From Aquimarina spinulae (lineage in GTDB: Bacteria; Bacteroidota; Bacteroidia; Flavobacteriales; Flavobacteriaceae), in the NCBI RefSeq assembly GCF_943373825.1, contig NZ_CALSBP010000002.1:124001-188000 (forward strand): a stretch of 64,000 nucleotides of DNA. Reading direction: 5' to 3'. Each line of letters starts with the position of its first letter. Within the stretch, counting starts at the first letter, position 1. A program made the translations under genes and the position numbers. This document shows, piece after piece, positions 1-35,483 of the stretch. The notes beneath the pieces are model-generated. The model was not told the origin of the DNA. It made no database searches and was given only the letters and a program-made list of their open reading frames with translations.

Positions 1-3000
1 GTACTGGCTACTGCGCAATTATCTGAAGTAGTAGGTGTACCTAAAGCAACACTGCTCGCTGTACATAAACCTGCATCTACATTAACGCTTACCGTTGCTG
101 GACAACTGATTGTTGGATCGATATTATCGGTTACTGTTACCGTTTGTGTACAGGTAGCTGTATTTCCTGAACTATCCGTTACTGTCCAGGTGACTGTGGT
201 ATCTCCTATCGGGAAAACTCCCGGTGCATCGTTGGTTGTACTGGCTACTGCGCAATTATCTGAAGTAGTCGGTGTACCTAAAGCAACACTGCTCGCAGTA
301 CATAAACCTGCATCTACATTGACATTTACCGTTGCTGGACAACTGATCGTTGGATCAATGTTATCGGTTACCGTTACCGTTTGTGTACAGGTAGCTGTAT
401 TTCCAGAACTATCCGTTACTGTCCAGGTTACTGTGGTATCTCCTAGTGGGAAAACTCCCGGTGCATCATTAGTCGCACTAGCTACTGCACAATTATCTGA
501 AGTAGTCGGTGTACCTAAAGCAACACTACTCGCAGTACATAAGCCAGCGTCTACATTAACGTTTACCGTTGCTGGACAACTGATTGTTGGATCGATATTA
601 TCGGTTACCGTTACGGTCTGTGTACAGGTCGCTGTATTACCAGAACTGTCCGTTACGGTCCAGGTGACTGTTGTATCTCCTATCGGGAAAACTCCCGGTG
701 CATCGTTGGTTGTACTGGCTACTGCACAATTATCTGAAGTAGTAGGTGTACCTAAAGCAACACTACTCGCAGTACATAAGCCTGCATCTACATTGACATT
801 TACTGTCGCTGGGCAACTGATTGTTGGATCGATATTGTCGGTTACTGTTACCGTTTGTGTACAGGTCGCTGTATTTCCAGAACTATCCGTTACGGTCCAG
901 GTCACTGTGGTATCTCCTAGTGGGAAAACTCCTGGTGCATCGTTGGTTGTACTGGCTACTGTACAATTATCTGAAGTAGTAGGTGTACCCAAAGCAACAC
1001 TACTTGCAGTACATAATCCAGCATCTACATTGACATTTACCGTTGCTGGACAACTGATTGTTGGATCGATATTGTCGGTTACTGTTACGGTTTGAGTACA
1101 GGTCGCTGTGTTTCCAGAACTATCCGTTACTGTCCAGGTGACTGTCGTATCTCCTATCGGGAAAACTCCCGGTGCATCATTGGTTGTACTGGCTACTGCA
1201 CAATTATCTGAAGTAGTAGGTGTACCTAAAGCAACACTACTCGCTGTACATAAGCCAGCATCTACATTGACATTTACTGTGGATGGACAACTGATTGTTG
1301 GATCAATGTTATCGGTTACGGTTACCGTTTGGTTACAAATGGCTGTATTACCTGAACTATCTGTTACCGTCCAGGTGACTGTTGTATCCCCTATCGGGAA
1401 AACTCCCGGTGCATCGTTAGTTACACTGGCTACTGCACAATTATCTGAAGTAGTAGGTGTACCTAAAGCAACACTACTCGCTGTACATAAACCTGCATCT
1501 ACATTTACATTTACTGTGGATGGACAACTGATTGTTGGATCAATGTTATCGGTTACGGTTACCGTTTGTGTACAGGTCGCTGTATTTCCAGAACTATCCG
1601 TTACTGTCCAGGTCACTGTGGTATCTCCTAGTGGGAAAACTCCCGGTGCATCATTAGTTGTACTAGCTACTGCACAATTATCTGAAGTAGTAGGTGTACC
1701 TAAAGCAACACTGCTCGCAGTACATAAGCCTGCATCTACATTGACATTTACCGTGGCTGGGCAACTGATCGTTGGATCAATGTTATCGGTTACTGTTACC
1801 GTTTGTGTACAAGTTGCTGTGTTTCCAGAACTATCCGTGACTGTCCAGGTGACTGTCGTATCTCCTAGTGGGAAAACTCCTGGTGCATCATTGGTTGTAC
1901 TAGCTACTGCACAATTATCTGAAGTAGTCGGTGTACCCAAAGCAACACTGCTCGCAGTACATAAACCTGCATCTACATTGACATTTACCGTTGCTGGACA
2001 ACTGATCGTTGGATCAATGTTATCGGTTACCGTTACGGTTTGTGTACAGGTCGCTGTATTTCCAGAACTATCCGTTACTGTCCAGGTTACTATGGTATCT
2101 CCTAGTGGGAAAACTCCCGGTGCATCGTTGGTTGTACTAGCTACTGCACAATTATCTGAAGTAGTAGGTGTACCTAAAGCAACACTGCTCGCAGTACATA
2201 AGCCAGCATCTACATTTACATTTACCGTTGCTGGGCAACTGATTGTTGGATCGATATTGTCGGTTACTGTTACCGTTTGTGTACAGGTAGCTGTATTTCC
2301 AGAACTGTCGGTGACTGTCCAGGTGACTGTTGTATCTCCTATCGGGAAAACTCCTGGTGCATCATTGGTTGTACTGGCTACAGCACAATTATCTCCTGTA
2401 GTTGGCGTACCTAAAGCAACACTACTCGCAGTACATAAGCCTGCATCTACATTGACATTTACTGTGGCAGGACAACTGATTGTTGGATCAATATTGTCGG
2501 TTACGGTTACGGTTTGTGTACAGGTAGCTGTATTCCCAGAACTGTCCGTTACTGTCCAGGTGACTGTCGTATCTCCTATCGGGAAAACTCCTGGTGCATC
2601 ATTGGTTGTACTGGCTACTGCACAATTATCTCCTGTAGTTGGGGTTCCTAAAGTAACACCACTCGCAGTACATAAGCCTGCATCTACATTGACATTTACC
2701 GTGGCTGGACAACTGATCGTTGGATCAATATTGTCGGTTACCGTTACCGTTTGAGTACAGGTAGCTGTGTTTCCAGAACTATCCGTGACTGTCCAGGTGA
2801 CTGTTGTATCTCCTAATGGGAAAACTCCCGGTGCATCATTGGTTGTACTGGCTACTGCACAATTATCTCCTGTAGTTGGGGTTCCTAAAGTAACACCACT
2901 CGCAGTACATAAGCCTGCATCTACATTGACATTTACCGTGGCTGGACAACTGATCGTTGGATCAATATTGTCGGTTACCGTTACCGTTTGAGTACAGGTA

Positions 3001-6000
3001 GCTGTGTTTCCAGAACTATCCGTGACTGTCCAGGTGACTGTTGTATCTCCTAATGGGAAAACTCCCGGTGCATCATTGGTTGTACTCGCTACTGCACAAT
3101 TATCTCCTGTAGTCGGAGTGCCTAAAGTAACACTACTCGCAGTACATAGACCGGCATCAACATTTACGTTTACGGTTGCTGGACAACTGATTGTTGGATC
3201 AATGTTATCGGTTACTGTTACCGTTTGTGTACAGGTAGCTGTATTTCCAGAACTATCCGTGACTGTCCAGGTCACTGTGGTATCTCCTAGTGGGAAAACT
3301 CCTGGTGCATCATTGGTTGTACTGGCTACTGCACAATTATCTGAAGTAGTAGGTGTACCCAAAGCAACACTGCTCGCTGTACATAATCCAGCATCTACAT
3401 TGACATTTACTGTCGCTGGGCAACTGATTGTTGGATCGATATTATCGGTTACCGTTACGGTCTGTGTACAGGTTGCTGTATTACCAGAACTATCCGTTAC
3501 TGTCCAGGTGACTGTCGTATCTCCTAGTGGGAAAACTCCTGGTGCATCATTGGTTGTACTGGCTACTGCACAATTATCTCCTGTAGTTGGGGTTCCTAAA
3601 GTAACACCACTCGCAGTACATAAGCCAGCATCTACATTGACATTTACTGTGGCTGGACAACTGATCGTTGGATCAATATTATCCGTTACCGTTACCGTTT
3701 GAGTACAGGTAGCTGTGTTTCCAGAACTATCCGTGACTGTCCAGGTGACTGTTGTATCTCCTAATGGGAAAACTCCCGGTGCATCATTGGTTGTACTCGC
3801 TACTGCACAATTATCTCCTGTAGTCGGAGTGCCTAAAGTAACACTACTCGCAGTACATAGACCGGCATCAACATTTACGTTTACGGTTGCTGGACAACTG
3901 ATTGTTGGATCAATGTTATCGGTTACTGTTACCGTTTGTGTACAGGTAGCTGTATTTCCAGAACTATCCGTTACTGTCCAGGTCACTGTGGTATCTCCTA
4001 GTGGGAAAACTCCCGGTGCATCGTTAGTTACACTGGCTACTGCACAATTATCTGAAGTAGTAGGTGTACCTAAAGCAACACTGCTCGCAGTACATAAACC
4101 AGCGTCTACATTAACGTTTACGGTGGCTGGACAACTGATTGTTGGATCGATATTATCGGTTACCGTTACGGTCTGTGTACAGGTCGCTGTATTTCCAGAA
4201 CTATCCGTGACTGTCCAGGTCACTGTGGTATCTCCTATCGGGAAAACTCCCGGTGCATCATTGGTTGTACTGGCTACTGCACAATTATCTGAAGTAGTAG
4301 GTGTACCTAAAGCAACACTGCTCGCTGTACATAAACCAGCATCAACATTTACGTTTACGGTTGCTGGACAACTGATTGTTGGATCGATATTGTCTGTTAC
4401 TGTTACCGTTTGTGTACAGGTAGCTGTATTTCCAGAACTATCCGTTACGGTCCAGGTGACTGTCGTATCTCCTAGTGGGAAAACTCCCGGTGCATCGTTG
4501 GTTGTACTGGCTACTGCACAATTATCTGAAGTAGTAGGTGTACCCAAAGCAACACTGCTCGCTGTACATAATCCAGCATCTACATTGACATTTACTGTCG
4601 CTGGGCAACTGATTGTTGGATCGATATTATCGGTTACCGTTACGGTCTGTGTACAGGTTGCTGTATTACCAGAACTATCCGTGACTGTCCAGGTCACTGT
4701 GGTATCTCCTAGTGGGAAAACTCCTGGTGCATCATTAGTCGCACTAGCTACTGCACAATTATCTGAAGTAGTAGGTGTACCCAAAGCAACACTACTCGCA
4801 GTACATAAACCAGCGTCTACATTAACGTTTACGGTGGCTGGACAACTGATCGTTGGATCAATGTTATCGGTTACCGTTACGGTTTGAGTACAGGTCGCTG
4901 TATTTCCAGAACTATCCGTTACTGTCCAGGTGACTGTCGTATCTCCTATCGGGAAAACTCCCGGTGCATCATTAGTCGCACTAGCTACAGCACAATTATC
5001 TGAAGTAGTAGGTGTACCCAAAGCAACACTACTCGCAGTACATAAGCCAGCATCTACATTGACATTTACCGTTGCTGGACAACTGATCGTTGGATCAATG
5101 TTATCGGTTACTGTTACCGTTTGTGTACAGGTCGCTGTATTTCCAGAACTATCCGTTACTGTCCAGGTGACTGTGGTATCTCCTAGTGGGAAAACTCCCG
5201 GTGCATCATTGGTTGTACTGGCTACTGCACAATTATCTGAAGTAGTCGGTGTACCCAAAGCAACACTGCTCGCAGTACATAAGCCTGCATCTACATTGAC
5301 ATTTACCGTGGCTGGACAACTGATCGTTGGATCAATATTGTCGGTTACGGTTACGGTTTGTGTACAGGTAGCTGTATTCCCAGAACTGTCCGTTACTGTC
5401 CAGGTGACTGTCGTATCTCCTATCGGGAAAACTCCTGGTGCATCATTGGTTGTACTGGCTACTGCACAATTATCTCCTGTAGTTGGGGTTCCTAAAGTAA
5501 CACCACTCGCAGTACATAAGCCTGCATCTACATTGACATTTACGGTTGCTGGACAACTGATCGTTGGATCAATGTTATCGCTTACTGTTACCGTTTGTGT
5601 ACAGGTAGCTGTATTACCAGAACTGTCCGTTACGGTCCAGGTCACTGTCGTATCTCCTATCGGGAAAACTCCCGGTGCATCATTAGTCACACTGGCTACT
5701 GCACAGTTATCCCCTGTAGTTGGAGTGCCTAAAGCAACACTACTCGCTGTACATAATCCTGCATCTACATTGACATTTACCGTGGCTGGACAACTGATTG
5801 TTGGGTCAATATTGTCGGTTACTGTTACCGTTTGTGTACAGGTCGCTGTATTACCAGAACTATCCGTTACTGTCCAGGTCACTGTCGTATCTCCTATCGG
5901 GAAAACTCCCGGTGCATCATTGGTTGTACTAGCTACTGCACAATTATCTGAAGTAGTAGGTGTACCCAAAGCAACACTGCTCGCAGTACATAAGCCTGCA

Positions 6001-7692
6001 TCTACATTGACATTTACTGTCGCTGGGCAACTGATCGTTGGATCAATATTATCCGTTACCGTTACCGTTTGAGTACAGGTCGCTGTATTACCAGAACTGT
6101 CCGTTACAGTCCAGGTGACTGTCGTATCTCCTAATGGGAAAACTCCCGGTGCATCATTGGTTGTACTGGCAACTGCACAATTATCTGAAGTAGTAGGTGT
6201 ACCTAAAGCAACACTACTTGCAGTACATAAACCTGCATCTACATTGATATTTACTGTCGCTGGGCAACTGATCGTTGGATCAATATTATCCGTTACCGTT
6301 ACCGTTTGAGTACAGGTAGCTGTGTTTCCAGAACTATCCGTTACTGTCCAGGTTACTGTTGTATCTCCTATCGGGAAAACTCCTGGTGCATCATTGGTTG
6401 TACTGGCTACAGCACAATTATCTCCTGTAGTTGGCGTACCTAAAGCAACACTACTCGCAGTACATAAGCCTGCATCTACATTGACATTTACTGTGGCAGG
6501 ACAACTGATTGTTGGATCAATATTGTCGGTTACGGTTACGGTTTGTGTACAGGTAGCTGTATTACCAGAACTGTCCGTTACTGTCCAGGTGACTGTCGTA
6601 TCTCCTATCGGGAAAACTCCTGGTGCATCATTGGTTGTACTGGCTACTGCACAATTATCTCCTGTAGTTGGGGTTCCTAAAGTAACACCACTCGCAGTAC
6701 ATAAGCCTGCATCTACATTGACATTTACGGTTGCTGGACAACTGATCGTTGGATCAATATTATCCGTTACCGTTACCGTTTGAGTACAGGTAGCTGTGTT
6801 TCCAGAACTATCCGTGACTGTCCAGGTGACTGTGGTATCTCCTATCGGGAAAACTCCCGGTGCATCATTGGTTGTACTGGCTACTGCACAATTATCTGAA
6901 GTAGTAGGTGTACCTAAAGCAACACTGCTCGCAGTACATAAACCAGCATCAACATTTACGTTTACGGTTGCTGGACAACTGATCGTTGGATCAATGTTAT
7001 CGGTTACGGTTACCGTTTGGTTACAAATGGCTGTATTACCTGAACTATCTGTTACCGTCCAGGTGACTGTTGTATCTCCTATCGGGAAAACTCCCGGTGC
7101 ATCGTTAGTTACACTAGTTACTGCACAATTATCTGAAGTAGTTGGTGTACCTAAAGTAACACCACTGGCTGTACATAGACCAGCATCTACATTGACATTT
7201 ACTGTGGCAGGACATGCAATTATCGGATCTATATTATCTGTTACTGTTACGGTTTGTGTACAGGTAGCTGTGTTTCCAGAACTATCTGTTACTGTCCAGG
7301 TTACTGTTGTATCTCCTAATGGGAAAGCTCCTGGTGCATCGTTGGTTGTACTGGCTACAGCACAATTATCTGAAGTAGTTGGCGTACCTAAAGTAACACC
7401 ACTCGCAGTACATAGACCGGCATCAACATTAACATTTACGGTTGCTGGACAACTGATTGTTGGATCAATATTGTCGGTTACCGTTACCGTTTGTGTACAG
7501 GTAGCTGTGTTTCCTGAACTATCCGTGACTGTCCAGGTGACTGTAGTATCTCCTATCGGGAAAACTCCCGGTGCATCATTGGTTGTACTCGCTACTGCAC
7601 AATTATCTCCTGTAGTCGGAGTGCCTAAAGTAACACTACTCGCAGTACATAGACCGGCATCAACATTGACATTTACTGTGGCAGGACAACTG
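1..7692 (-). repeat. Tandem array of 237-bp HYR-encoding units
   Basis: Units of 237 bp (79 residues) repeat head to tail. The landmark gggaaaactcccgg first occurs at 211 and last at 7558, a distance of 7347 bp or exactly 31 x 237, so 32 landmarks occur without any net indel. Each encoded unit has four Cys and the motifs TDNIDPTISCP, GTPTTSDNC (or GTPTTGDNC) and TVTWTVTDSSGNTATC, which are HYR hallmarks. Variants (SSVALG or SGVTLG; FPIGD or FPLGD) are mosaically distributed. The last units, near 7000-7690, are the most diverged. The array continues past the left edge. Confidence 0.97.
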
Positions 7693-10600
7693 ATTGTTGG
7701 ATTAGTAGTATCTTCAACAGTAAGAGTTACAGTAATTGAAGTTTCAGGAGTACATACATATGTTGAACTTGAAACAACAACTCGATATTGATTACCATTA
7801 TGTGCAACAAGTGCATTGGTAATTGTTAGTGTAGCAGTAGTTGTAGTACTATGAATTCCTGTATCTGTTAAATCATCCCAGGTACTACCATTAAACAATT
7901 GCCACTGATACGTATCTGCATTAGATGTCGCAACAGTGAAGGTAGTGTTTCCGCCTGGACATATGGCCGAATCTGATGGTTGTGTAGTAATTGATGGGGC
8001 AACTCCCGCTGTGGTTACATTAGCATTAGTACCTGTATATCCATCGGTTCCCGAGGTGACTACTCCATTTCCATCTACTGTAAGACCAGCTCCAAAAGTA
8101 CCGTTACCCAAATATCCGTTATTATCACCATCGGTAAATCCGGCTTCAATAACATCATTACACCCATCGGCATCACTATCTAATTCTAAAAAATTATAAT
8201 TATTATCTGTATCACTATCAGCAACTGTATAGTTTATGGTTCCACTGCTTTCACTTCCAGGTGCCTGAACCGCATCTGGTACTCCATCTGAACTTAAAGC
8301 GCCAGATACAACACCGTTTACATGTGCTTGATTATGACCCGCTTCTACAGCATCATAGATCCCATCATTATCACTATCTAAATCCAGACGATCCACAATG
8401 TTATCACCATCAGTATCTCTGTCGAAACATAATACAAAAGAATTTGCCTTAAAAGCTAACCAGGAATCAAAAAGATTATCTCCATTATCTGCTACTCCGA
8501 TTTTGATCGTATTATTTCCTGCATTTAACACTGCAGAAAAAGTTATTGTATGTGTAAAACCATCTGCTTCAATATTTATGGCTGTAGGAACCGTTTCATT
8601 ATCTGTATATGATCCGCTATCTACTGTATTATTTACCGTATCGATACTTAGTTGTGCTCCAGAAGGTGTTAATGCTAAATTAGTTCCGTTTATAAATATT
8701 TTAGGAGCATCGTTTAATCCTGTATTTACATAATCATTATATTCTTCCGAAGCAAAAACAAACTGACCCGAGATCACTGTTTCTGCTGGGATATTAACTA
8801 CTATTTCAAGACTGGCAACATCAAATTCTGTACTACCTCCACCAAAATCGGCATCTTTTCCTCCTCCAGCGGCACCTGTACCATTAATTCCATCACCTAA
8901 TGCATTAGGGGTTGAGAATTGATTAGATAAATTATCATCTAATTCAAGAACGTTACCCGAAGAAAAAATAATTCCCCGATCAAATCCAAGGAATGCATTT
9001 AAAGCTCCTCCACTACTTGTTATTTGATCACCATCATTGAATGTTCCTATTTGTGTTACAGCTCCACTACCTTCATTAACAGTAGCAGATACCAAAGTAA
9101 GATCAGAATCAGGGGCAAATAATAAATTTGCCAGAGTAGTGGCATTGTTTTCTGCAGTAATCTCAAAAGTAGTATTGGCATCATCCAGCAATTCTACTCC
9201 AAATGACCCTCCACCCAAATCACATTCATCTCTATCCAGGATTCCATCATTATCATCATCTAAATCTATAGAATCCATTATACCGTCTCCATCTGAGTTT
9301 ACGGTTAAAAGCGCAGGTCCGGCGGGATCGATAATTTGTCCATCTGAAACGGTATCATCACCAAATACTCCATCTGTAAGATTATAAGAAGCCGTAGCTA
9401 TTGTTCTTGCTCCTATAGTTGTTGTATTCAATGTAGTTGTAAAATCCTGATAAATATCTGATGCTCCTCCAGGAGTATTTGGTCCATATTTTCGGTATGT
9501 AAATCCTGCTAAAGAATTAGTGATATGCCAATAGTAAGTAACTGTTACATCGTCTCCCGGAGTTATACAGTCTAAAGTAAAATCTACCAATCCATAGGGA
9601 TAATGATATGTTGCATCATTGGCCGCCAATTCTGATTCTAATACGGTACTGATACTAGAGATCTGAAAACAAATCCCTGTGGTTTCTATTGTTACATATC
9701 CTGTACCATCTGCTATGGGTATAGTAGCTACATTTCCTTGTGAAGAATCTGGTATTCCATCCCCGTTTCCATCGCCTCCATTAGGCCCTGCATCTTCTAC
9801 TGTTCCTGTAACTCCATCACCATCCTCACAACCTGTAGTTATTGCATTATTTGTTACAGCAGCTACTGCTCCTGTGGTATATGCTGCTGCGACGACTAGA
9901 CCATCATGATTCACAGTATTTGCAGTCACGGTAAGTGGTTCTGTAGCCGTATTCCATGGGTTATAGACTCCTCCATTTGCGCCATCTGCATTCCAGTTAT
10001 TATATGCTTCATTGGCATCACTACAACCATCTGCATCACTATCAAGAGATTCAAAATCAAAGTCTCCAGCTGCATCTGTGTTTGCTATTGTATAATTAAG
10101 TATTCCAGACTCTGCAACCGTTTCTATAGTATCAAAAAGCCCATTATTTCCTGATCCCGTATCTGCTCCATTGATTCTTCCGTTACTGGTAGCAAACCCA
10201 TGACCGGCTTCTATGGCATCATAGATACCATCATTATCACTATCTAAATCATAAAAATCAGGGACTCCATCTCCATCTGTATCAAAAGCAGTTTCGACGG
10301 CTCCATCTACATTTCCTGTTCCTCCATCGGCATCATCATCATCAAGATAAGCAAAGATATTATCTGTATCTCCATCTGCATATGGATCAGACGGAGCTTC
10401 ATTCAAATTAGGAATTCCGTCATTATCTACATCCAGATCCCAGGGATCTAAAACAAGATCTCCATCAAGATCAAAAGCAGAAGATGCTGTAGGGCAGGCA
10501 AATCCATCATTACTGGTGGTAGCTATTGTATTGTTTAAAAGGGTTACAGAAGGTGTTGCAGTGGTATAATCATTAACCAGGTACATCCCTCCAAGATTAT

Positions 10601-12653
10601 AAGATACATATAAGCGATCTTCTGCATCAGTAAATGCAGCTCCAAAATTAGTTGCTGTAGGAGTGCCCAGACCTGAAACTTCTGTTTTAACTAATGTAGT
10701 AAGATCCCAACTAATTAATAGGTCTGTATTACTTACACCATATAATTTGTCGTTGATAAAAACTACATCATTGGTATTTTTATTTGTTCCTCCTGTAAAG
10801 TTAACTGTAACTACTGCAGGTGAGCCACCGACTGGTAAGGTCGATAGATTTTCGATTCTGTCGTAATGCCCATTTCTATTAATCCATAGGTTATCACTGG
10901 CATCAACATCTCCAGATATACCACCACCACTCATGTTAGTTAGTGCTCCCAAATCCTGAAAAGCCCCATCCGCTCCTATACGAAGTAAGTGATTATGGAT
11001 AGGACTCGAGCCTCCCCCTTTACCAATAGCATACACATAATCATCAATTCTATTATATCCTGTTGCGTTGTATAATTGACTCACTGCAATGGGATCAGAA
11101 TATTCTCCTGTTATGGCATCGTAACTTTTTAACTCTCCAGAGATAATTTGAAAAAAGTTTTGAGGGCAACTAAATGGAGTTAGCGAGCATGCTGCTGACA
11201 CTACTCCACCATTAATATAATCTGCATTAGGAGTGGTATATCCATCTACTGCACTAGTCACTACTCCGTCTTCATTAACGGTTACGACAAGAGGTCCCAA
11301 AATACCATCACTACTTTCATCTGTAAAACCAGCTTCTCGAACATCACTACACGTATCTCCATCACTATTTGTAGATTGAAAATTAGGATTTCCTGCCGCA
11401 TCTGTATCTGCTATTGTATAATTAATTATACCAGAATCTACTATAGTTTCCAGACCGTCGAAAAGCCCATTTGTACCTGCTCCTGTATCCTGACCGGTTA
11501 TTCTTCCATTGGTATGTGGCAAACCATGTCCTGCTTCAACCACATCATAAATCCCGTCATTATCACTATCAAGATCAAAAAAATCGGGAACTCCATCTCC
11601 ATCGGTATCAAAAGCAGTTTCGATAGCCCCATCTACATTACCTGTTGCTCCATCGGCATCATCATCATCTAAATATGCAAAAATCAAGTCTCCATCTCCA
11701 TCGGCAAAAGGATCAGATGGAGATTCGTCTGTATTTGTTAGACCATCCCCATCTACGTCTAAATCTAAAGGATCTAAAATATCATCACCATCCTGATCTA
11801 TCGGTGAAGGTGCCGAGGGGCATGAAAACCCATCATTACTGGTTGTAGCAGCTGTAGAGTTTAAAAATGATGATGTTGGTGTTCCTGTTGTATAATCATT
11901 GATTAAATACAACCCTCCATCATTATACGATACGTACAAGCGATCTTCATTATCTGTAAATGCAGCTCCAAAACCAAGAGTTGTGGTTGGAGTACTTAAA
12001 CCTCCTACTACCGTTTTGATCGATGTATCGAGATCCCATATAATAAGTTCTGCACTTTTATTAACTCCATATAATTTTCTATTGATATGCACAACATCAT
12101 TAACATCACCCGCTGGTCCTGTAAAATTAACGGTTACTACTGCGGGAGATCCTCCTACAGGAAGGGTTGACAGGTTTTCGATTCTATCATAATGGTCTCC
12201 CCTATTAATCCATAAATTATCACTATCATCAACATCTCCAGATATACCACCAGACCCCTTATTGGTCAAGGCCCCAAGATCCGCTATGGATCCATCTGCA
12301 TCAATACGAATTAAATGATCATTTATGGTACCGGCTTTTCCTATAGCATATACAAAATCATCAACCGGATTATATCCTGTAGCATTATAGAGGTCATTCG
12401 TGCTAATTGGTGCCGAATATTCGCCTGTAACTGCATTATAGCTTTTTAATTCGCCACTAATGACCTGATAAAATGTAGAAGGACAGCTAAACTGTCCATA
12501 CCCCAAAGAACCAATAAGCATAAAGGTTATACCACATGCTATAGAGAAATTGTTCTTCTTTTTATTTTTTCTTACTATACAAAAACGTAACAATCTATTT
12601 ATCAAGATGAATATGAGTTGTATTAGAAACAAGAATCGTGTATTGATTTTCAT
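1..12653 (-). CDS. Giant HYR-repeat cell-surface protein (C-terminus beyond window)
   Basis: The reading frame is open from the ATG at 12653 to the left edge, so at least 4217 residues are encoded and the C-terminus is not visible. Domains by residue: two hydrophobic stretches in the first 55 residues, the second ending GYGQ like a signal peptide; a DUF6923-like module (about 56-280, GELKSYN...YNATGYN); DxDxDGD calcium-type repeats; a second DUF6923-like copy (about 490-725) with more Asp-rich repeats; a choice-of-anchor L domain (about 1158-1408, motif ASEEYNDYV); an Ig-like domain (about 1548-1650); then 32 HYR units to the edge. HYR and choice-of-anchor domains are typical of secreted Bacteroidota adhesins, many of which use T9SS and carry a C-terminal sorting domain, which cannot be checked here. 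An adhesion or gliding role is inference. A TTG codon about 20 residues downstream would give a more usual signal peptide. Confidence 0.9.
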   Translation of the reverse strand, partial: MKINTRFLFLIQLIFILINRLLRFCIVRKNKKKNNFSIACGITFMLIGSLGYGQFSCPSTFYQVISGELKSYNAVTGEYSAPISTNDLYNATGYNPVDDFVYAIGKAGTINDHLIRIDADGSIADLGALTNKGSGGISGDVDDSDNLWINRGDHYDRIENLSTLPVGGSPAVVTVNFTGPAGDVNDVVHINRKLYGVNKSAELIIWDLDTSIKTVVGGLSTPTTTLGFGAAFTDNEDRLYVSYNDGGLYLINDYTTGTPTSSFLNSTAATTSNDGFSCPSAPSPIDQDGDDILDPLDLDVDGDGLTNTDESPSDPFADGDGDLIFAYLDDDDADGATGNVDGAIETAFDTDGDGVPDFFDLDSDNDGIYDVVEAGHGLPHTNGRITGQDTGAGTNGLFDGLETIVDSGIINYTIADTDAAGNPNFQSTNSDGDTCSDVREAGFTDESSDGILGPLVVTVNEDGVVTSAVDGYTTPNADYINGGVVSAACSLTPFSCPQNFFQIISGELKSYDAITGEYSDPIAVSQLYNATGYNRIDDYVYAIGKGGGSSPIHNHLLRIGADGAFQDLGALTNMSGGGISGDVDASDNLWINRNGHYDRIENLSTLPVGGSPAVVTVNFTGGTNKNTNDVVFINDKLYGVSNTDLLISWDLTTLVKTEVSGLGTPTATNFGAAFTDAEDRLYVSYNLGGMYLVNDYTTATPSVTLLNNTIATTSNDGFACPTASSAFDLDGDLVLDPWDLDVDNDGIPNLNEAPSDPYADGDTDNIFAYLDDDDADGGTGNVDGAVETAFDTDGDGVPDFYDLDSDNDGIYDAIEAGHGFATSNGRINGADTGSGNNGLFDTIETVAESGILNYTIANTDAAGDFDFESLDSDADGCSDANEAYNNWNADGANGGVYNPWNTATEPLTVTANTVNHDGLVVAAAYTTGAVAAVTNNAITTGCEDGDGVTGTVEDAGPNGGDGNGDGIPDSSQGNVATIPIADGTGYVTIETTGICFQISSISTVLESELAANDATYHYPYGLVDFTLDCITPGDDVTVTYYWHITNSLAGFTYRKYGPNTPGGASDIYQDFTTTLNTTTIGARTIATASYNLTDGVFGDDTVSDGQIIDPAGPALLTVNSDGDGIMDSIDLDDDNDGILDRDECDLGGGSFGVELLDDANTTFEITAENNATTLANLLFAPDSDLTLVSATVNEGSGAVTQIGTFNDGDQITSSGGALNAFLGFDRGIIFSSGNVLELDDNLSNQFSTPNALGDGINGTGAAGGGKDADFGGGSTEFDVASLEIVVNIPAETVISGQFVFASEEYNDYVNTGLNDAPKIFINGTNLALTPSGAQLSIDTVNNTVDSGSYTDNETVPTAINIEADGFTHTITFSAVLNAGNNTIKIGVADNGDNLFDSWLAFKANSFVLCFDRDTDGDNIVDRLDLDSDNDGIYDAVEAGHNQAHVNGVVSGALSSDGVPDAVQAPGSESSGTINYTVADSDTDNNYNFLELDSDADGCNDVIEAGFTDGDNNGYLGNGTFGAGLTVDGNGVVTSGTDGYTGTNANVTTAGVAPSITTQPSDSAICPGGNTTFTVATSNADTYQWQLFNGSTWDDLTDTGIHSTTTTATLTITNALVAHNGNQYRVVVSSSTYVCTPETSITVTLTVEDTTNPTISCPATVNVNVDAGLCTASSVTLGTPTTGDNCAVASTTNDAPGVFPIGDTTVTWTVTDSSGNTATCTQTVTVTDNIDPTISCPATVNVNVDAGLCTASGVTLGTPTTSDNCAVASTTNDAPGAFPLGDTTVTWTVTDSSGNTATCTQTVTVTDNIDPIIACPATVNVNVDAGLCTASGVTLGTPTTSDNCAVTSVTNDAPGVFPIGDTTVTWTVTDSSGNTAICNQTVTVTDNIDPTISCPATVNVNVDAGLCTASSVALGTPTTSDNCAVASTTNDAPGVFPIGDTTVTWTVTDSSGNTATCTQTVTVTDNIDPTISCPATVNVNVDAGLCTASGVTLGTPTTGDNCAVASTTNDAPGVFPIGDTTVTWTVTDSSGNTATCTQTVTVTDNIDPTISCPATVNVNVDAGLCTASSVALGTPTTGDNCAVASTTNDAPGVFPIGDTTVTWTVTDSSGNTATCTQTVTVTDNIDPTISCPATVNINVDAGLCTASSVALGTPTTSDNCAVASTTNDAPGVFPLGDTTVTWTVTDSSGNTATCTQTVTVTDNIDPTISCPATVNVNVDAGLCTASSVALGTPTTSDNCAVASTTNDAPGVFPIGDTTVTWTVTDSSGNTATCTQTVTVTDNIDPTISCPATVNVNVDAGLCTASSVALGTPTTGDNCAVASVTNDAPGVFPIGDTTVTWTVTDSSGNTATCTQTVTVSDNIDPTISCPATVNVNVDAGLCTASGVTLGTPTTGDNCAVASTTNDAPGVFPIGDTTVTWTVTDSSGNTATCTQTVTVTDNIDPTISCPATVNVNVDAGLCTASSVALGTPTTSDNCAVASTTNDAPGVFPLGDTTVTWTVTDSSGNTATCTQTVTVTDNIDPTISCPATVNVNVDAGLCTASSVALGTPTTSDNCAVASATNDAPGVFPIGDTTVTWTVTDSSGNTATCTQTVTVTDNIDPTISCPATVNVNVDAGLCTASSVALGTPTTSDNCAVASATNDAPGVFPLGDTTVTWTVTDSSGNTATCTQTVTVTDNIDPTISCPATVNVNVDAGLCTASSVALGTPTTSDNCAVASTTNDAPGVFPLGDTTVTWTVTDSSGNTATCTQTVTVTDNIDPTISCPATVNVNVDAGLCTASSVALGTPTTSDNCAVASTTNDAPGVFPIGDTTVTWTVTDSSGNTATCTQTVTVTDNIDPTISCPATVNVNVDAGLCTASSVALGTPTTSDNCAVASVTNDAPGVFPLGDTTVTWTVTDSSGNTATCTQTVTVTDNIDPTISCPATVNVNVDAGLCTASSVTLGTPTTGDNCAVASTTNDAPGVFPLGDTTVTWTVTDSSGNTATCTQTVTVTDNIDPTISCPATVNVNVDAGLCTASGVTLGTPTTGDNCAVASTTNDAPGVFPLGDTTVTWTVTDSSGNTATCTQTVTVTDNIDPTISCPATVNVNVDAGLCTASSVALGTPTTSDNCAVASTTNDAPGVFPLGDTTVTWTVTDSSGNTATCTQTVTVTDNIDPTISCPATVNVNVDAGLCTASSVTLGTPTTGDNCAVASTTNDAPGVFPLGDTTVTWTVTDSSGNTATCTQTVTVTDNIDPTISCPATVNVNVDAGLCTASGVTLGTPTTGDNCAVASTTNDAPGVFPLGDTTVTWTVTDSSGNTATCTQTVTVTDNIDPTISCPATVNVNVDAGLCTASGVTLGTPTTGDNCAVASTTNDAPGVFPIGDTTVTWTVTDSSGNTATCTQTVTVTDNIDPTISCPATVNVNVDAGLCTASSVALGTPTTGDNCAVASTTNDAPGVFPIGDTTVTWTVTDSSGNTATCTQTVTVTDNIDPTISCPATVNVNVDAGLCTASSVALGTPTTSDNCAVASTTNDAPGVFPLGDTIVTWTVTDSSGNTATCTQTVTVTDNIDPTISCPATVNVNVDAGLCTASSVALGTPTTSDNCAVASTTNDAPGVFPLGDTTVTWTVTDSSGNTATCTQTVTVTDNIDPTISCPATVNVNVDAGLCTASSVALGTPTTSDNCAVASTTNDAPGVFPLGDTTVTWTVTDSSGNTATCTQTVTVTDNIDPTISCPSTVNVNVDAGLCTASSVALGTPTTSDNCAVASVTNDAPGVFPIGDTTVTWTVTDSSGNTAICNQTVTVTDNIDPTISCPSTVNVNVDAGLCTASSVALGTPTTSDNCAVASTTNDAPGVFPIGDTTVTWTVTDSSGNTATCTQTVTVTDNIDPTISCPATVNVNVDAGLCTASSVALGTPTTSDNCTVASTTNDAPGVFPLGDTTVTWTVTDSSGNTATCTQTVTVTDNIDPTISCPATVNVNVDAGLCTASSVALGTPTTSDNCAVASTTNDAPGVFPIGDTTVTWTVTDSSGNTATCTQTVTVTDNIDPTISCPATVNVNVDAGLCTASSVALGTPTTSDNCAVASATNDAPGVFPLGDTTVTWTVTDSSGNTATCTQTVTVTDNIDPTISCPATVNVNVDAGLCTASSVALGTPTTSDNCAVASTTNDAPGVFPIGDTTVTWTVTDSSGNTATCTQTVTVTDNIDPTISCPATVSVNVDAGLCTASSVALGTPTTSDNCAVAS

Positions 12654-12660
12654 AAGCTAT

Positions 12661-13161
12661 TTATGATAAAATTGTTTTATTATTATTCTGAAGGGACTCA
12701 TACGAATCCATAGCTACTATGTTTTTAGAAATACATAGCAGCGTAATACCGCCAACTAATGTGTAGTCTTGCTGAATTGATCTTAAATATTTCTGAAAAG
12801 AAGTATGAGTAGTACTTACCACACTATTTTTTGAGTCATGGATGGTATTATATGTTTTACTTTTATATAAATATGGATATACATGAGTATGTATACTATC
12901 TTTAAAAGCGGTACTATTTTCTATAGGTAGCTCGGTGCGATTATTACTTTTTAATAAAAGGACAGAGGAAGACTCTAAAAATGAATATGCAATAAAAGAG
13001 TATAATACTAATAGAAGCGTAATTACTCCCATCAAAATTATGATGTTATAGTTAGATAGCGTATCTATTTTTCGAACATAATTCGTGTAGATACCAGAAA
13101 AACTATCTTTTATATAAGAAGACCTTTGTACATCTTTTGATGCAAAAAAATGAAACCTCAT
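12661..13161 (-). CDS. Small single-pass membrane protein, function unknown
   Basis: This encodes 166 residues that I do not recognise. A strongly hydrophobic segment near residues 40-62 (IIILMGVITLLLVLYSFIAY) predicts one membrane helix, with about 40 mostly polar residues before it and about 100 after it. The stop lies 7 bp upstream of the start of the giant HYR gene, so the two are almost certainly co-transcribed and may be translationally coupled. The gene starts 36 bp downstream of a conserved hairpin that also precedes the sulfatase gene. A role in export, anchoring or regulation of the giant protein is suggested only by position. Confidence 0.75.
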   Translation of the reverse strand: MRFHFFASKDVQRSSYIKDSFSGIYTNYVRKIDTLSNYNIIILMGVITLLLVLYSFIAYSFLESSSVLLLKSNNRTELPIENSTAFKDSIHTHVYPYLYKSKTYNTIHDSKNSVVSTTHTSFQKYLRSIQQDYTLVGGITLLCISKNIVAMDSYESLQNNNKTILS

Positions 13162-13200
13162 AATGGTTAATTTAGTATTAAATTGATCGTTATTCAGATC

Positions 13201-13240
13201 CCTGGGATTGCTGGCTCGCCAAAAGGTTTACAATTCCGGG
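13201..13240 (-). ncRNA. Candidate structured leader RNA, copy 1
   Basis: Arms CCTGGGATTG (13201-13210) and CAATTCCGGG (13231-13240) can form a 10-bp stem with two G-U pairs. It encloses the palindromic core TGGCTCGCCA (13212-13221), which reads TGGCGAGCCA on the minus strand. The same core, followed by a similar GTTTTACA-type stretch, occurs at 17598-17640 with a different but again self-complementary outer stem. That pattern of conserved core and covarying stem suggests RNA. It lies 40 bp upstream of the 166-residue membrane protein gene. I cannot assign it to a known family; a Flavobacteria-specific RNA such as Flavo-1 is possible but unchecked. Confidence 0.5.
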
Positions 13241-13680
13241 ATTGTTATTTTTCTATGCTATATTCTCATTATTATTTATGTACATTATCAAACAAAAATT
13301 ATCTTTTCCTTCTACATTAAACACCAAAGCATTGTTTGGTAACAGATTCTGAAAATCACATGTTTTGTATTTTCAAAATGGTATTATATCTTTTGCATAT
13401 GAAAAAATCAGATGAGGAAAACATCATCACACATTTTACGAAGGAAATAAAAGTAGTGCAGTCCATAAGCAATTTATTATATCGATTAAAGTTCACTAAC
13501 TATAATATCTACGGGCAAATAAATACTATACTATATCACAGCAATATTGCCGTAATTTTCTATGCTAAATAGCTATAAAAAAATAACACATTTGGGACAT
13601 CAAGGGGTAAGAAATAAAATGTCTAGTGTAATTTTTTCTATAAGCAATATCTATTTTAAGTAATGTGTTTACGTTATGCT

Positions 13681-13760
13681 TTTATTAACATTATAAATGT
13701 ATACATAAAACTTTGATTATGAGTATCTTAAAACACCAAAATAATTACGGTTTTACCATA
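13681..13760 (-). promoter_or_regulatory. Conserved 80-bp upstream block, copy 1 (two dyads)
   Basis: This block aligns without gaps to 18076-18155 at about 80 percent identity by eye, although the surrounding intergenic DNA is not alike. It contains the dyad ACATT-ATA-AATGT and, at its other end (13746-13760), TACGGT-TTT-ACCATA. Between the copies the centre of the second dyad changes from TTT to AAA while the arms stay conserved, as expected of a site read as an inverted repeat. It lies about 520-600 bp upstream of the surface-protein operon. Orientation and the binding protein are unknown. Confidence 0.5.
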
Positions 13761-13995
13761 AAAACAGGTTGAAATCATCAATTTTCGGGATAAAAGACAT
13801 GAATTTGAGAGAATCCTACGAATACGTAATACAATTTCTAAAAAAGTAACCCGCACCTATTTAAGGTCATTTGGTTAAGAAATTAAGTAGTACTAGTATC
13901 AAATTAAGTCTATCAGAATGTAAACACGATTTGCGTTCTATTTTGATTTTGACAAGGTTCAATATTGCAACGATTTTCTTTATATCAAAAAAACA

Positions 13996-14024
13996 AAAGA
14001 GGTTACCATTTTGATAACCTCTTT
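13996..14024 (-). terminator. Rho-independent terminator downstream of the sulfatase gene
   Basis: Inverted repeat AAAGAGGTTA (13996-14005) and TAACCTCTTT (14015-14024) with a 9-nt loop and T-rich flanks on both strands. It lies about 210 bp beyond the sulfatase stop and could act in both directions. Confidence 0.75.
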
Positions 14025-14235
14025 TTAATTTGCATTCGTACCTTACTGAACATCTGATCTAATACCATTTGCACTTTAAACCTACTGGAATAAAATGTTC
14101 TTTTTTCATCTCAGTTTCAGAATAAAAATAAACCGTAGTCCTGCTATGCTTGATTTTTCTTCTTTACTGAAACAAAAAAATCTTAATTTTCTTTGCCAGT
14201 AAATTCAAAATACAAATGATATACTATAATTTACA

Positions 14236-17200
14236 TTACATCTTGATCAATCGTTTTTGAATTATAGTATCACCAACACTTATTTTTATAAAATACTGTC
14301 CCGTAGATAAATCTTGAGTAGGCACTTTAATTCTTTCTTGATTTGTATATGATTTCAAGAAAATTGACTGTCCTAAATTATTAAGTATCTCGACTTCTGT
14401 ATTTTGATCACTATTTTCTTTTGAAGTGATATATATCTGGTTTCCAAATGGATTTGGATATATCGAAAACATATCATCTTTAGATATCGTTTCTTCTGTT
14501 ACTGCTTCTTGCTCTTCGGCTTGTGCCTCTGGTTGCACTTCTGCTTCTGTAGGTACATCATTAACAATTGGTGCGCTGGTCATAGAAGCAGTTGGAGTAC
14601 TACAACCATTAATCACTACATCATCAATATACACCCAATCTGAATTACCAGATGCATCTGCTCTAAATCGAAGTTGAGTTGTTGCCGTAAAAGGCCCCGG
14701 GATTACTACCTGATCATTATAACGTTGATCATTTACAAATTCATCAGATTGATTCCATTCTTCTACAGTAGTAAAGTTTGCTCCACCATCTGTTGATATC
14801 TGAAGCCAGAAATCTTCATTACTATTATCCATACTTCTACAGTAATACGAGAAATTAATCGTTAACTCTTCATAACTTGTCATATCAAAATTAGAAGTCG
14901 TCATCACCGATGTAGATGTGTTATCTCGTAATCGTATACAATAGGTTCCCGAATTTGCATACGCTGCATCGCTAGAACTTCTTCTTGCATCAGATCCACC
15001 ACCGGACCATACGCCCCACCCGGATTCGAAATCTTCTGAGTTAATAACCGCATATGTACATTGTGATGGGTTAGGATCTGGGAGACATCCAGATGTGATC
15101 ACCTGTGCCGCAGAGAGTGCAAAATCATACACAACAACTGCATCCATTTTCCCGGTATAAAAATTATCTACAGTTTCTCCAAAACTATCTTTTTTCTGTA
15201 CACCACCAATTCCTCCTGATCCTATATGTGTAGGAACAGAACCTGGCGCTGCACTACTTGAAGCAGCAGAAACACCATCAATATATAAACTATGACTGGT
15301 ACTTCCGCCATTATACACTACAGCAACATGGTGCCAATCTCCATCATTTGGAAAAGCTACACTATGACTATCAGAAACCGTAGCGCTATTTCTTACTATA
15401 GACTCCAGGTTTGAACCGTTTAATCTCAATACAACTCCGCTAACTCCTCCTCCTTCTTCAAAAAGATTCTGGATACCAGACAGTGCAGTTGGTTTTATCC
15501 ACATGGCAACACTTCTTTGCGACATCGATGCAATCAAAAACGGACCAGGGTTCTCACTGTACTGTATTTTTGTAGCTCCATCAAATACAGCAGATCGATC
15601 TCCTTCTTTAAAATCTACAGCATCGTAAGTTAACGTTCCTATAGTCGAAAGAGGATCATTATTATTTGCAGAAGCATCATTTGCATCTACCCCAACATCA
15701 AAATTCCAAAGTGCTAAATATGTATCTGGTTCAACACAACTCACAACTGGTGGGTTGATCTGGATAATTTCTGGTAACGGAACCGTAAGTCCACTACTTC
15801 TATAGGTAGGCAAAGGAGCAGATATATTAATCAGATAGTTACGAAGATCGGTACTTAGATCATTTGCGATAGTTAAGGTTGCATTATCAGGGCTTCCTGA
15901 TAATAAGTTAGTCGCTTCGCCAATATCGGTTATAAGATTATACATTTCATAAGAAGCTGTTTCAAAATTATGAATCAACTTGTAGTCTCCTTTTCGTATA
16001 ATAGATACAGGTCTTTGATCACGTTTAGAATCAATTAGGTATCCAGGAAAATGCCAGTAGATTGCATCTCTATTTAGGTTAGGATTCGTACCGGTTAACA
16101 TAGACCATTGGCTTACACCATCGATATCATATCCTGTTGGTAATGTTCCTCCTGCGGCTTCTACAAGTGTTGGATACAGGTCAAAAGCAACAATAGGCGT
16201 ATTATTAATTGTACCTGTATTTGCCAATAAACCTTCTGACCATGCTATAGTAATTGATCGTACTCCGCCTTCATAATGCTCGCCTTTCATTCCTCGTAAA
16301 GGACCATTATCTTCTGTTCCGATAGCACCACCATTATCAGAAATAAAATATACCAATGTATTTTCTGATAACATATGACCAGGATTTCTTGGATCTGCCG
16401 TTGTTTTTAGGTAATCGATAAGTCTGCTAATGGTTTGATCCATTCCTTCGGCGATTGCTGCCTGGCTTACATTAGTATGCCCCATCTGGCTGGGGTTTGT
16501 ATTATTTTTAGCCACGTACTTGGCATATAAATCTGGCCTTGCATTTGCCTGCCCCCAAGGGCCATGTATTGCATAATTACTAAAATGCATAAAAAACGGA
16601 GATGTATTATTTGCATTCATAAAATCGATTGCGGCATCCGCCATCGCATCTGTTACATGTTTTGCTGTTCCTTCTAGAGAGTTATCTCCTGCTAGTGCCA
16701 TAGATTCACTTAGTGTATATGGATCGGCATATGGATCTAGCTCTGGGCCTATCCTGCTATGAAAAGTCCAAACACCCCCAGATTGCGAAGCAAAATAGCT
16801 TCCCGGAGCACCATCAGAACCGCCTCCATAGTTAAAATCAAACCCTTGATCGGTAGGTCCATTGCTCATGCTTCCTCCCGAGTGATATTTTCCAAAATGA
16901 GCTGTTGTATATCCACTTGCTTTTATGGTCTCGGCTATTGTAATCGCACTGGCAGGAATTTCATCTTCTCCGTTAGATAATCCCTGGCTAGGGCCTACTA
17001 ATAAGGTAGAACTTCCTCCTCTATTTAAACCATTTACCGCAAATACGTTATTATCGGGTCTTGATGCATATTGCCCGCTTAAAATTGCTGCCCTGGTTGG
17101 TGCACAATTTGCCCCGTTTACATAGGCCTGCGGAAATGCAATACCTTGAGTCGCCAACGTTTCTAAAGTTGGTGTCTCATAAAAATCACTGGGGTTATTA

Positions 17201-17340
17201 ATGTTAGTTGCCCCCGTACTCACTTGTGACCACCCCATATCATCGGCTATAATAACTACGATATTTGGAGATTGAGAATAAATCGAACTACTAACGCCAA
17301 TACAGAGTAGCAGTACTAAGAATTTGGTTGTTGTTTTCAT
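14236..17340 (-). CDS. T9SS-exported multidomain sulfatase
   Basis: The 1034 residues begin with a signal peptide (to about 23). An N-terminal type I sulfatase domain follows (about 25-480), with the metal-binding motif IADDMGW at 31-37 and the active-site signature C79-A-P-T-R83, whose Cys must be converted to formylglycine by a maturase. A LamG/concanavalin-like domain comes next (about 530-760, starting near YLALWNFD), then a beta-sandwich domain with FESGWGVW and WVYIDDVVING (about 765-925) that may bind carbohydrate. A type A T9SS sorting domain ends the protein (about 960-1034, SIYPNPF...). The family removes sulfate esters from polysaccharides, here probably outside the cell or on its surface; the substrate is unknown. 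Non-catalytic domains of this size are unusual for a minimal sulfatase. The promoter region is long and shares elements with the giant surface gene. Confidence 0.92.
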   Translation of the reverse strand: MKTTTKFLVLLLCIGVSSSIYSQSPNIVVIIADDMGWSQVSTGATNINNPSDFYETPTLETLATQGIAFPQAYVNGANCAPTRAAILSGQYASRPDNNVFAVNGLNRGGSSTLLVGPSQGLSNGEDEIPASAITIAETIKASGYTTAHFGKYHSGGSMSNGPTDQGFDFNYGGGSDGAPGSYFASQSGGVWTFHSRIGPELDPYADPYTLSESMALAGDNSLEGTAKHVTDAMADAAIDFMNANNTSPFFMHFSNYAIHGPWGQANARPDLYAKYVAKNNTNPSQMGHTNVSQAAIAEGMDQTISRLIDYLKTTADPRNPGHMLSENTLVYFISDNGGAIGTEDNGPLRGMKGEHYEGGVRSITIAWSEGLLANTGTINNTPIVAFDLYPTLVEAAGGTLPTGYDIDGVSQWSMLTGTNPNLNRDAIYWHFPGYLIDSKRDQRPVSIIRKGDYKLIHNFETASYEMYNLITDIGEATNLLSGSPDNATLTIANDLSTDLRNYLINISAPLPTYRSSGLTVPLPEIIQINPPVVSCVEPDTYLALWNFDVGVDANDASANNNDPLSTIGTLTYDAVDFKEGDRSAVFDGATKIQYSENPGPFLIASMSQRSVAMWIKPTALSGIQNLFEEGGGVSGVVLRLNGSNLESIVRNSATVSDSHSVAFPNDGDWHHVAVVYNGGSTSHSLYIDGVSAASSSAAPGSVPTHIGSGGIGGVQKKDSFGETVDNFYTGKMDAVVVYDFALSAAQVITSGCLPDPNPSQCTYAVINSEDFESGWGVWSGGGSDARRSSSDAAYANSGTYCIRLRDNTSTSVMTTSNFDMTSYEELTINFSYYCRSMDNSNEDFWLQISTDGGANFTTVEEWNQSDEFVNDQRYNDQVVIPGPFTATTQLRFRADASGNSDWVYIDDVVINGCSTPTASMTSAPIVNDVPTEAEVQPEAQAEEQEAVTEETISKDDMFSIYPNPFGNQIYITSKENSDQNTEVEILNNLGQSIFLKSYTNQERIKVPTQDLSTGQYFIKISVGDTIIQKRLIKM

Positions 17341-17597
17341 AGATTAATGGTTTAAAATTTACAATCGTAATGATTGGATAGATTAGTTATTTATGTATTC
17401 GTTTTTTAATTGAAATCTTTATGACTTCTTACTATCTTGTTGTTAAACTGATCTTTGGGAGGATTCTATATTTAGAAAGGAAAATCATGATCAGGTCTGG
17501 GAAACCACCAACTCAAAAAATAAGAATTCTGAGTTCTTTTTTAGAAAACATCATGAGATGTATTGCTTCTAAATTGTAATTAGTATTTCTATTCCAG

Positions 17598-17640
17598 ACA
17601 CTGCTTTTGTTGGCTCGCCAAAGTTTTACAGTTGCAGTGT
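17598..17640 (-). ncRNA. Candidate structured leader RNA, copy 2
   Basis: Arms ACACTGC (17598-17604) and GCAGTGT (17634-17640) form a perfect 7-bp stem around the palindromic core TTGGCTCGCCAA (17610-17621) and a GTTTTACAG stretch. The core matches copy 1 at 13201-13240, while the outer stem has a different sequence that still pairs. On the minus strand it lies about 257 bp upstream of the sulfatase start. An RNA role (riboswitch, attenuator or protein-binding leader) is inference. Confidence 0.5.
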
Positions 17641-18075
17641 TGTTTTATATTTTGTTGTTTAACACTATATAATAATAACAAACTGGTTCATATGCTAATA
17701 CTGCATATACACTCTTATATTCCTTAAGAGGTGCTATAATTGGTCATATCCATTGTTTTTAGATCTGAAAAAGAATCAGATCCTATACACATGGTATAGA
17801 TGTTATATACGAGGTAAAAAGATGACTTAAAAAGCATTTGCATCACCCTTACTAAGAAAAAAGTAAATGTAGTCATAAGTAGAATAATTTAATTAATATC
17901 TAAAAATTAGCTCATTAACTTAACCATGCGATTGGGTACATGATTAGTAGTATTTACATTATGACAATGGTAATTTGATGATATCGTATACTTAAAAAAG
18001 ACGTATCTAATAGTTGGGGTAGGCACTACTGTCTTTAATAACTAAACTATTTTACATCCAGGTTTCTGTTAAGTT

Positions 18076-18155
18076 TTTTTTAACATTATAAATGTATGTA
18101 TAAAACTTTGATTAAGAGCAATTTAAACCCTCAAAATAATTGTGGTAAAACCGTA
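18076..18155 (-). promoter_or_regulatory. Conserved 80-bp upstream block, copy 2 (two dyads)
   Basis: Ungapped match to 13681-13760. It carries the same ACATT-ATA-AATGT dyad and the site TGTGGT-AAA-ACCGTA at 18141-18155. The distance from this block to the hairpin element (about 440 bp from block edge to stem) nearly equals that of copy 1, even though the DNA between is not conserved. It could be a distal operator or promoter of the sulfatase transcript. Confidence 0.5.
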
Positions 18156-18243
18156 TATCATATATTTATATGCCTGAATACAAGTAAAATCCAAAAAAAT
18201 AAAAGAGGTAGATATTTATAAATAGTTATTTTTATTTAATGTG

Positions 18244-23167: not shown

Positions 23168-23251
23168 AGGGTATGAGTTAAAAAATTTGTGTTGGTTAAT
23201 ATATGCTGAATTATTCTACTTACAAGATAGGGTATTTACACTTTTTTTGTA

Positions 23252-35391: not shown

Positions 35392-35483
35392 TACTTAAAC
35401 ACTTAATTTTTACAATTACCGGAAAAAAGTATGTAGTTTACCCATACCCAAACCTTTGTCCCGAAAGTTTGATTACATCGAAT

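Follow-up and report, generated by a model that had tools for sequence, protein, structure and literature searches.

A hairpin RNA family beside surface-protein genes of Aquimarina, with signals on both strands

To our knowledge, how Flavobacteriia choose among several enormous adhesins is an open question. The 64,000-nucleotide stretch of Aquimarina DNA analysed here, the window, contains two hairpin elements beside surface-protein genes, one before a leader ORF and a giant adhesin and the other before a sulfatase. The first-pass annotation had proposed a cis-regulatory RNA. A leader that acts simply in cis explains only part of what was seen: sequence comparison suggests that some copies of the element form the ends of small antisense RNAs and that others provide the corresponding sites in adhesin mRNA leaders. 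The tentatively favoured reading, with a probability of about 0.42, is a single RNA module that serves on both strands, as a paralogous antisense small-RNA family and as the complementary leaders of giant-adhesin mRNAs. The features of the window are as follows.

1..12653, minus strand: start of the adhesin gene (6,016 residues), which runs beyond the window to C2:118603
12661..13161, minus strand: leader ORF (166 aa) that starts with the tail-end ATG and stops 7 nt short of the adhesin ATG
13185..13248, minus strand: hairpin element copy 1 (79.5 bits with model R1, in whose building it was used; alignments A4 and A5)
13667..13746, minus strand: conserved promoter-like block upstream of copy 1, in sense (Blast between loci; block 15-mer exact at -455)
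13745..13761, no strand assigned: operator-like palindrome at the head of the copy 1 block, one mismatch to TTACGG-N5-CCGTAA
14236..17340, minus strand: sulfatase of 1034 aa with a type IX sorting tail
17429..17441, plus strand: antisense promoter-like box, two mismatches to TTACTATATTGTG, without an operator
17446..17655, plus strand: candidate antisense small RNA with inferred boundaries, the hairpin and U-tract forming its end
17585..17646, minus strand: hairpin element copy 2 (80.6 bits with R1, in whose building it was used; folds)
18062..18141, minus strand: conserved promoter-like block upstream of copy 2 (Blast between loci; 15-mer)

The hairpins and their family

Both elements noticed earlier are present, with extents corrected from 13201-13240 and 17598-17640 to 13185-13248 and 17585-17646. 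The adjoining surface genes were correctly recognised, as was the conserved block at each locus (13667-13746 and 18062-18141), which is upstream relative to the minus-strand genes. Copy 1 belongs to the 5' leader that precedes the leader ORF and adhesin, and its conserved tail runs on to the ATG at 13161. Copy 2 lies 245 nt upstream of the sulfatase ATG and has a diverged tail; an operator-like sequence at its block (18140-18156) has three mismatches, which is chance level. The outer stems differ yet pair in both copies, as had been claimed: the plus strand folds at -18.1 kcal/mol (z -2.2) in copy 1 and, as the better fold there too, at -15.7 kcal/mol (z -2.7) in copy 2, and the minus strand at -12.9 (z -1.0) and -11.5 (z -1.3), respectively. 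A terminator scan flagged neither window copy.

The shared 10-mer TGGCTCGCCA does occur at 13212-13221 and 17611-17620, on the plus strand in both cases; on its own it is at chance level in the window (two matches with at most one mismatch vs 0.91 expected; 24 of 100 shuffles reach two). This palindrome had been taken for the conserved core, a role that belongs instead to the loop. One of the palindrome's three pairs is broken in 12 of the 64 countable distinct copies, and the palindrome was rejected as a functional site: the TGG/CCA pairing is lost in other genera, and CUU/GAG and the loop are kept. Conservation falls on the 11-nt loop, which reads ACUUUGGCGAG in sense, and on the 3' tail, whose end is a start codon. 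The proposal that covariation of the stem reflects selection on structure held up, with 90.2% of cells paired vs 83.1% after shuffling (0/500), a result reproduced on a second alignment. A separate partner with the exact complement of the loop was sought in the genome and dropped (the 11-mer has three occurrences, all in motif copies and on one strand).

The whole element, unlike the 10-mer, exceeds chance: model R1, built from the five element copies of the window's own Aquimarina genome, finds many copies in genomes outside its building set (E down to 2e-17 per genome). These homologues carry compensatory changes, and the covariance model detects the element in roughly 22 of the 37 Aquimarina genomes and in a few other Flavobacteriaceae genera. 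Comparison with Rfam (cmscan, gathering and relaxed thresholds) gave zero matches, Flavo-1 included, and the element is not described in the open-licence PMC literature examined. Both hairpins belong to an RNA family that Rfam lacks and that accompanies surface-protein genes in Aquimarina and certain relatives. A riboswitch or other known RNA was rejected for want of Rfam support, and integron or transposon ends were rejected because the copies, by inspection, keep their orientation to the gene.

A class-level search with model R3 was positive in one of 295 genomes, that of locus L284, which belongs to the same family; the L284 match has no loop and was excluded from the energy test and included in the pair count. 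Run on ten loci, R3 gave 11 matches at E <=1, nine of them at element sites, the two window copies not being among them. A 15-mer scan of the genome collection gave the element at E <1e-11 in at least three of the 119 loci listed (Aquimarina macrocephali, A. atlantica, and Aquimarina sp. Aq78). A FecR/SusC-type pattern sought in 397 genomes was positive in four, each already known, and viral contigs searched for the element yielded zero matches. Weak matches of model R2 (L226, L227, L228, L229, L240, L264, and L265) were judged by eye to be chance.

Signals on the two strands

In adhesin-locus copies the covarying structure keeps, as in a leader RNA, a constant position ahead of a start codon that is translated. 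The ATG is in place at the tail end in 40 of 46 alignment rows, and the leader ORF that it opens has a dN/dS of 0.18-0.41 and is under selection as protein; that of the window has no Pfam match. The P2 stem pairs better on the sense strand (95.4%) than on the antisense strand (89.4%). Sense deviations (GU 1/CA 27 vs GU 46/CA 28) speak for the two-strand reading; the GU/CA count is register-dependent and comes mostly from one pair, and without that dominating pair it gives p = 0.035 with related rows. The kept spacing of element, tail, and ATG, the selection on the ORF, the covarying sense stem, and the better sense pairing of P2 would all be expected if an RNA-binding protein or other factor read the loop in the message and controlled how the leader ORF and the surface protein are translated, with no role for the opposite strand. 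This purely cis reading is nevertheless considered unlikely, given the opposite-strand signals at other loci.

The conserved regulator and trmH loci, which lie outside the window, have a promoter-like box preceding the hairpin on the antisense strand, usually with an operator (TTACGG-N4/5-CCGTAA). All 13 regulator-locus copies have the box, between -76 and -190, and 11 of the 13 have the operator (at most one mismatch); the corresponding counts for trmH loci are 13 of 15 and, with at most two mismatches, 12 of 15. Just two of six sulfatase-locus copies have the box, without an operator. The sense block (15-mer, at most two mismatches) occurs in 27 of 50 other distinct copies vs 0 of 16 regulator/trmH copies. 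The canonical TAnnTTTG box is enriched near the element on neither strand. Regulator- and trmH-locus copies have often lost the sense ATG, and the trmH-locus sense ORF was discarded as a weak gene candidate (dN/dS 0.31-1.27).

The antisense hairpin with its U-tract resembles an intrinsic terminator: the 5' flank of the element is A-rich (8.0/12 vs 4.4 in background), which is a U-tract on the antisense strand. This stem and U-tract might simply shield promoters from antisense transcription. A plain terminator is very improbable, however, as it would need neither the invariant loop, nor the conserved tail, nor the ATG spacing.

Which strand folds better depends on the class of locus. The antisense hairpin is stabler in 21 of 21 copies of a group made up of the regulator, trmH, and sulfatase copies and two adhesin copies that have an antisense operator, in 12 of 12 FecR/SusC copies, in just 16 of 31 Aquimarina adhesin copies, and in 10 of 12 adhesin copies of other genera. 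This last count and the A-rich flank retained in adhesin copies suggest that these copies may also make antisense RNA. The earlier label of cis-regulatory RNA fits the adhesin-leader copies, whose tail-end ATG opens a leader ORF with dN/dS <1; it falls short for the regulator, trmH, sulfatase, and FecR/SusC copies, in which the opposite strand folds better, and for the antisense promoter-like blocks of the regulator and trmH loci. The better fold of the opposite strand and the promoter-like block found there make the element look like an antisense small-RNA family with complementary leaders.

Antisense RNAs and complementary leaders

Compared within one genome, copies of the putative small-RNA class and of the adhesin class are 96% identical in the loop and 88% in the tail, and 64% and 73% in the stem arms. 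Each copy's RNA might instead regulate only its own neighbour, with promoters unrecognised at some copies. The FecR/SusC copies, which favour the antisense strand and are placed as described for DonS-like RNAs (PMC7366714), would suit such cis-antisense action, as would the adhesin loci L196 and L207, where operator and box lie antisense to the leader. Cis action alone, however, does not require loop and tail to match between loci as well as within them, and regulator-locus copies have no surface gene in leader position at a constant distance; this alternative is judged distinctly unlikely. Several results count against the favoured reading: a regulator- or trmH-locus copy was not found in some genomes with adhesin copies (e.g., G010, G018, and G029), the TAnnTTTG box shows no enrichment, the terminator scan passed over both window copies, and the antisense box is sparse at sulfatase loci. 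The loop and tail conservation would also be expected if one protein bound both classes.

Under the favoured antisense-and-leader reading, a promoter, a conserved stretch, and a hairpin terminator would lie opposite the neighbouring genes at regulator and trmH loci, and possibly at window copy 2. The opposite strand would yield a small RNA of about 200-240 nt; at two non-window loci, the boundaries chosen give 202 and 244 nt, and the 5' part of such RNAs folds too. At adhesin loci, including window copy 1, the mRNA leader would consist of the hairpin, the conserved tail, and the ATG of the translated leader ORF. The small RNAs would be nearly complementary to these leaders. Loop-loop contacts and a duplex along the tail, spanning the AUG, are the most likely form of pairing, which would thereby block translation of leader ORF and adhesin. 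Predicted small RNA-leader duplexes are strong (-83 to -132 vs -78 or weaker for random pieces), because inverted homology must give them.

A wider scheme is doubtful: a two-sided network coordinating giant type IX adhesins, in which small RNAs under operator control, with a conserved terminator loop, would act in trans on several adhesin leaders with the complementary hairpin, the start codon opening a membrane leader ORF placed for coupling to the adhesin, and in which other genera would use the family in cis at their FecR/SusC loci. One antisense family would then serve both nutrient receptors and adhesins. If the favoured antisense-and-leader reading holds, adhesin translation would be tied to regulation by an antisense small-RNA family identifiable from its operator, loop, and leader ORF, and antisense-RNA control of Bacteroides glycan loci would be extended to another Bacteroidota family and gene class.

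Comparison with known RNA systems

Three known systems come closest to the element. Flavo-1 (RF01705) is a candidate structured RNA of Bacteroidetes occurring in both orientations relative to transcripts (PMC2864571, PMC9723704), as does the element, which lacks a cmscan match to RF01705 at gathering or relaxed thresholds. The FopS RNAs of Bacteroides thetaiotaomicron are multicopy paralogous small RNAs with a single-stranded 5' part and a Rho-independent terminator hairpin, have reported canonical promoters, and have a predicted action on the start codons of mRNAs for outer-membrane proteins (PMC11697453). The element likewise has multicopy paralogues and a proposed start-codon action; its antisense strand has a stem and U-tract, the terminator scan flagged neither window copy, and the small RNAs as delimited here fold in their 5' part too. 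In contrast to FopS, canonical promoters were not found near it, and its putative targets share sequence homology with the small RNAs; cmscan gave no FopS-family match, the deposited model being assumed present in Rfam 15.

DonS-like RNAs are cis-antisense RNAs of 78-128 nt in Bacteroides polysaccharide utilisation loci, opposite a susC homologue, with a negative effect on the neighbouring gene (PMC7366714, PMC10994844). Unlike these, the putative RNAs here would be about 200-240 nt long, the two window copies (adhesin leader and sulfatase) are not opposite a susC homologue, and Aquimarina copies lie at adhesin, sulfatase, regulator, and trmH loci. The likeness, drawn by position and not by sequence, is to the FecR/SusC copies, which are antisense, lie by the start of the susC homologue, favour the antisense hairpin, and stand in a DonS-like position at all 10 of the loci inspected, with Pfam used on three of them.

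Distribution of the hairpin element

The first-pass annotation placed two hairpin elements at 13201-13240 and 17598-17640; both exist, with slightly wider extents:

13185-13248, copy 1, before the leader ORF and adhesin gene
17585-17646, copy 2, before the sulfatase gene

The surface genes beside both hairpins lie on the minus strand, so the hairpin strand read initially is antisense to their messages. Counted across the window, the shared 10-mer by itself does not exceed chance expectation. The 6.24 Mb genome carries five true copies (the window's contig, at 88436, 116991, 137185, 141585 and 2024024) and a sixth exact core match, L005, that lacks the element. The further homologues sought were found: a covariance model built from the five copies (R1) matches 22 of 56 relatives (E up to 1). 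In a family sample it matches 9 of 397 genomes (E up to 0.01), namely this genome, one more Aquimarina and seven from five other genera. A model including the tail (R2) has hits in 24 of the 37 genomes of the genus at E up to 0.1, those in G453 and G007 being judged chance, and matches nine additional genomes weakly; in five of these nine, a hairpin with the same loop lies upstream of a SusC-like gene. A model from these five SusC-type hairpins (R3) matches 9 of 329 family genomes (E up to 0.01). At each of the ten R3 loci displayed, the hairpin follows a FecR-like gene at 31-152 nt and precedes a TonB-receptor gene (Pfam was run on three of these loci); one, L284, is without the loop. R2 recovers seven of the eight newly found sites, and R3 recovers adhesin-type sites weakly (9 of its 11 matches, the window copies being absent from the 11). 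The two types are treated here as one motif. Two to four tandem copies precede a single surface-protein gene at L175, L176, L177, L178, L181 and L214, and at some of these loci the leader ORFs are shortened.

At the gathering threshold, Rfam matches the window just once, at a cobalamin riboswitch (35470-35769, minus strand, 69.4 bits).

Stem covariation and the antisense strand

The proposed stem covariation is borne out in a structure-fitted alignment of 83 copies (66 distinct), with two-sided changes in all six pairs of helix P1 and three of four in P2. Paired cells reach 90.2% versus 83.1% when shuffled (0 of 500 shuffles as high). A structure-free alignment of 46 rows, selected by the author out of 77, gives the same picture (87.4 versus 82.5%). 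The loop ACUUUGGCGAG is nearly invariant, and the tail GAAUAACGAUUAAUUU..AUCAACCAUUAUG is kept as far as an ATG, in place in 40 of the 46 rows by the author's count.

Both window copies fold better on the plus strand than on the minus. A C.A mismatch kept in the sense stem reads as G.U on the antisense strand and the A-rich 5' flank as a U-tract, so the antisense hairpin, judged from sequence, has the look of an intrinsic terminator; a generic terminator scan flagged neither window copy. Separately, a terminator-like hairpin (14 pairs and a T-run; 13995-14025, minus strand) lies directly 3' of the sulfatase gene.

Antisense alignment of ten regulator-locus copies reveals the palindrome TTACGGGAAACCGTAA together with a TATATTG box resembling the F. 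psychrophilum TAnnTTGY (SM5) motif (PMC9723704). All 13 regulator-locus copies have the box, at -76 to -190, and 11 of them have the operator-like palindrome within one mismatch. At the trmH locus the box is present in 13 of 15 copies and the palindrome, within two mismatches, in 12; at sulfatase loci the box occurs in only two of six. The operator pattern occurs 21 times genome-wide versus 4 for the reversed pattern; the 21 include sites before the regulator gene listed below and near a kinase/regulator pair. The corresponding window features are:

17429-17441, plus strand, antisense promoter-like box of copy 2, no operator
22430-23167, minus strand, regulator gene, LytTR-type by eye from sequence
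23251-23267, operator-like palindrome ATACGGTAAAACCGTAA, upstream of the regulator gene by 84 nt

Autoregulation of this gene through the predicted operator is possible.

Adhesin leaders

At adhesin loci the tail-end ATG opens a leader ORF; in five loci (L189, L047, L177, L213, L214) the long protein itself begins there. In the window, 7 nt separate the leader stop from the adhesin ATG:

12661-13161, minus strand, leader ORF
1-12653, on to 118603 of the contig, minus strand, intact adhesin gene, 6,016 residues, with repeats

The window leader ORF has dN/dS of 0.18-0.41 against five orthologues, and values span 0.09-0.72 across three adhesin-locus groups. Its relatives are 12 proteins with no Pfam domain, the named ones being Aquimarina or "hypothetical". 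The adhesin's type B sorting domain scores 34.8 bits, just below the cut-off of 35, and a PorP/SprF gene comes next. The adhesin-start DNA ACAATTTTATCATAAATAGCTTATGAAA, with protein start MK[IVF][FN]T, is kept among otherwise unlike adhesins (window 12640-12690, minus strand; L195, L202, L185, L188). None of the 16 copies at the regulator and trmH loci has the sense promoter-like block (a 15-mer within two mismatches); of the 50 distinct copies elsewhere, 27 have it, 114-855 nt upstream.

Copy classes and a proposed paralogous small-RNA family

The antisense hairpin is the stabler in 21/21 distinct copies of a group that joins the regulator, trmH and sulfatase copies with two adhesin copies (L196, L207), in 12/12 FecR/SusC copies, in 16/31 Aquimarina adhesin copies and in 10/12 adhesin copies of other genera. 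On the sense strand, the first group shows deviations of GU 1/CA 27 and the adhesin group GU 46/CA 28, or 0/18 versus 47/37 with sulfatase copies on the adhesin side, counts that hinge on alignment register, for the most part on one pair, and on related rows. Between putative small-RNA and adhesin copies of the same genome (53 pairs inside 13 genomes), identity is 96% in the loop and 88% in the tail, whereas the arms reach 64% and 73%. Intermolecular pairing of loop and tail, with each stem pairing with itself, would give this pattern. One protein partner common to both classes would also fit the loop and tail identity. The favoured reading is that the element would represent a paralogous antisense small-RNA family with complementary adhesin leaders. 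Against it, no canonical promoter was found near the element, three genomes (G010, G018, G029) have leaders where no regulator- or trmH-locus copy was found, and the A-rich flank is retained in adhesin copies. The nearest parallels are DonS and FopS of Bacteroides (PMC7366714, PMC10994844, PMC11697453); the element is not claimed as a member of either.
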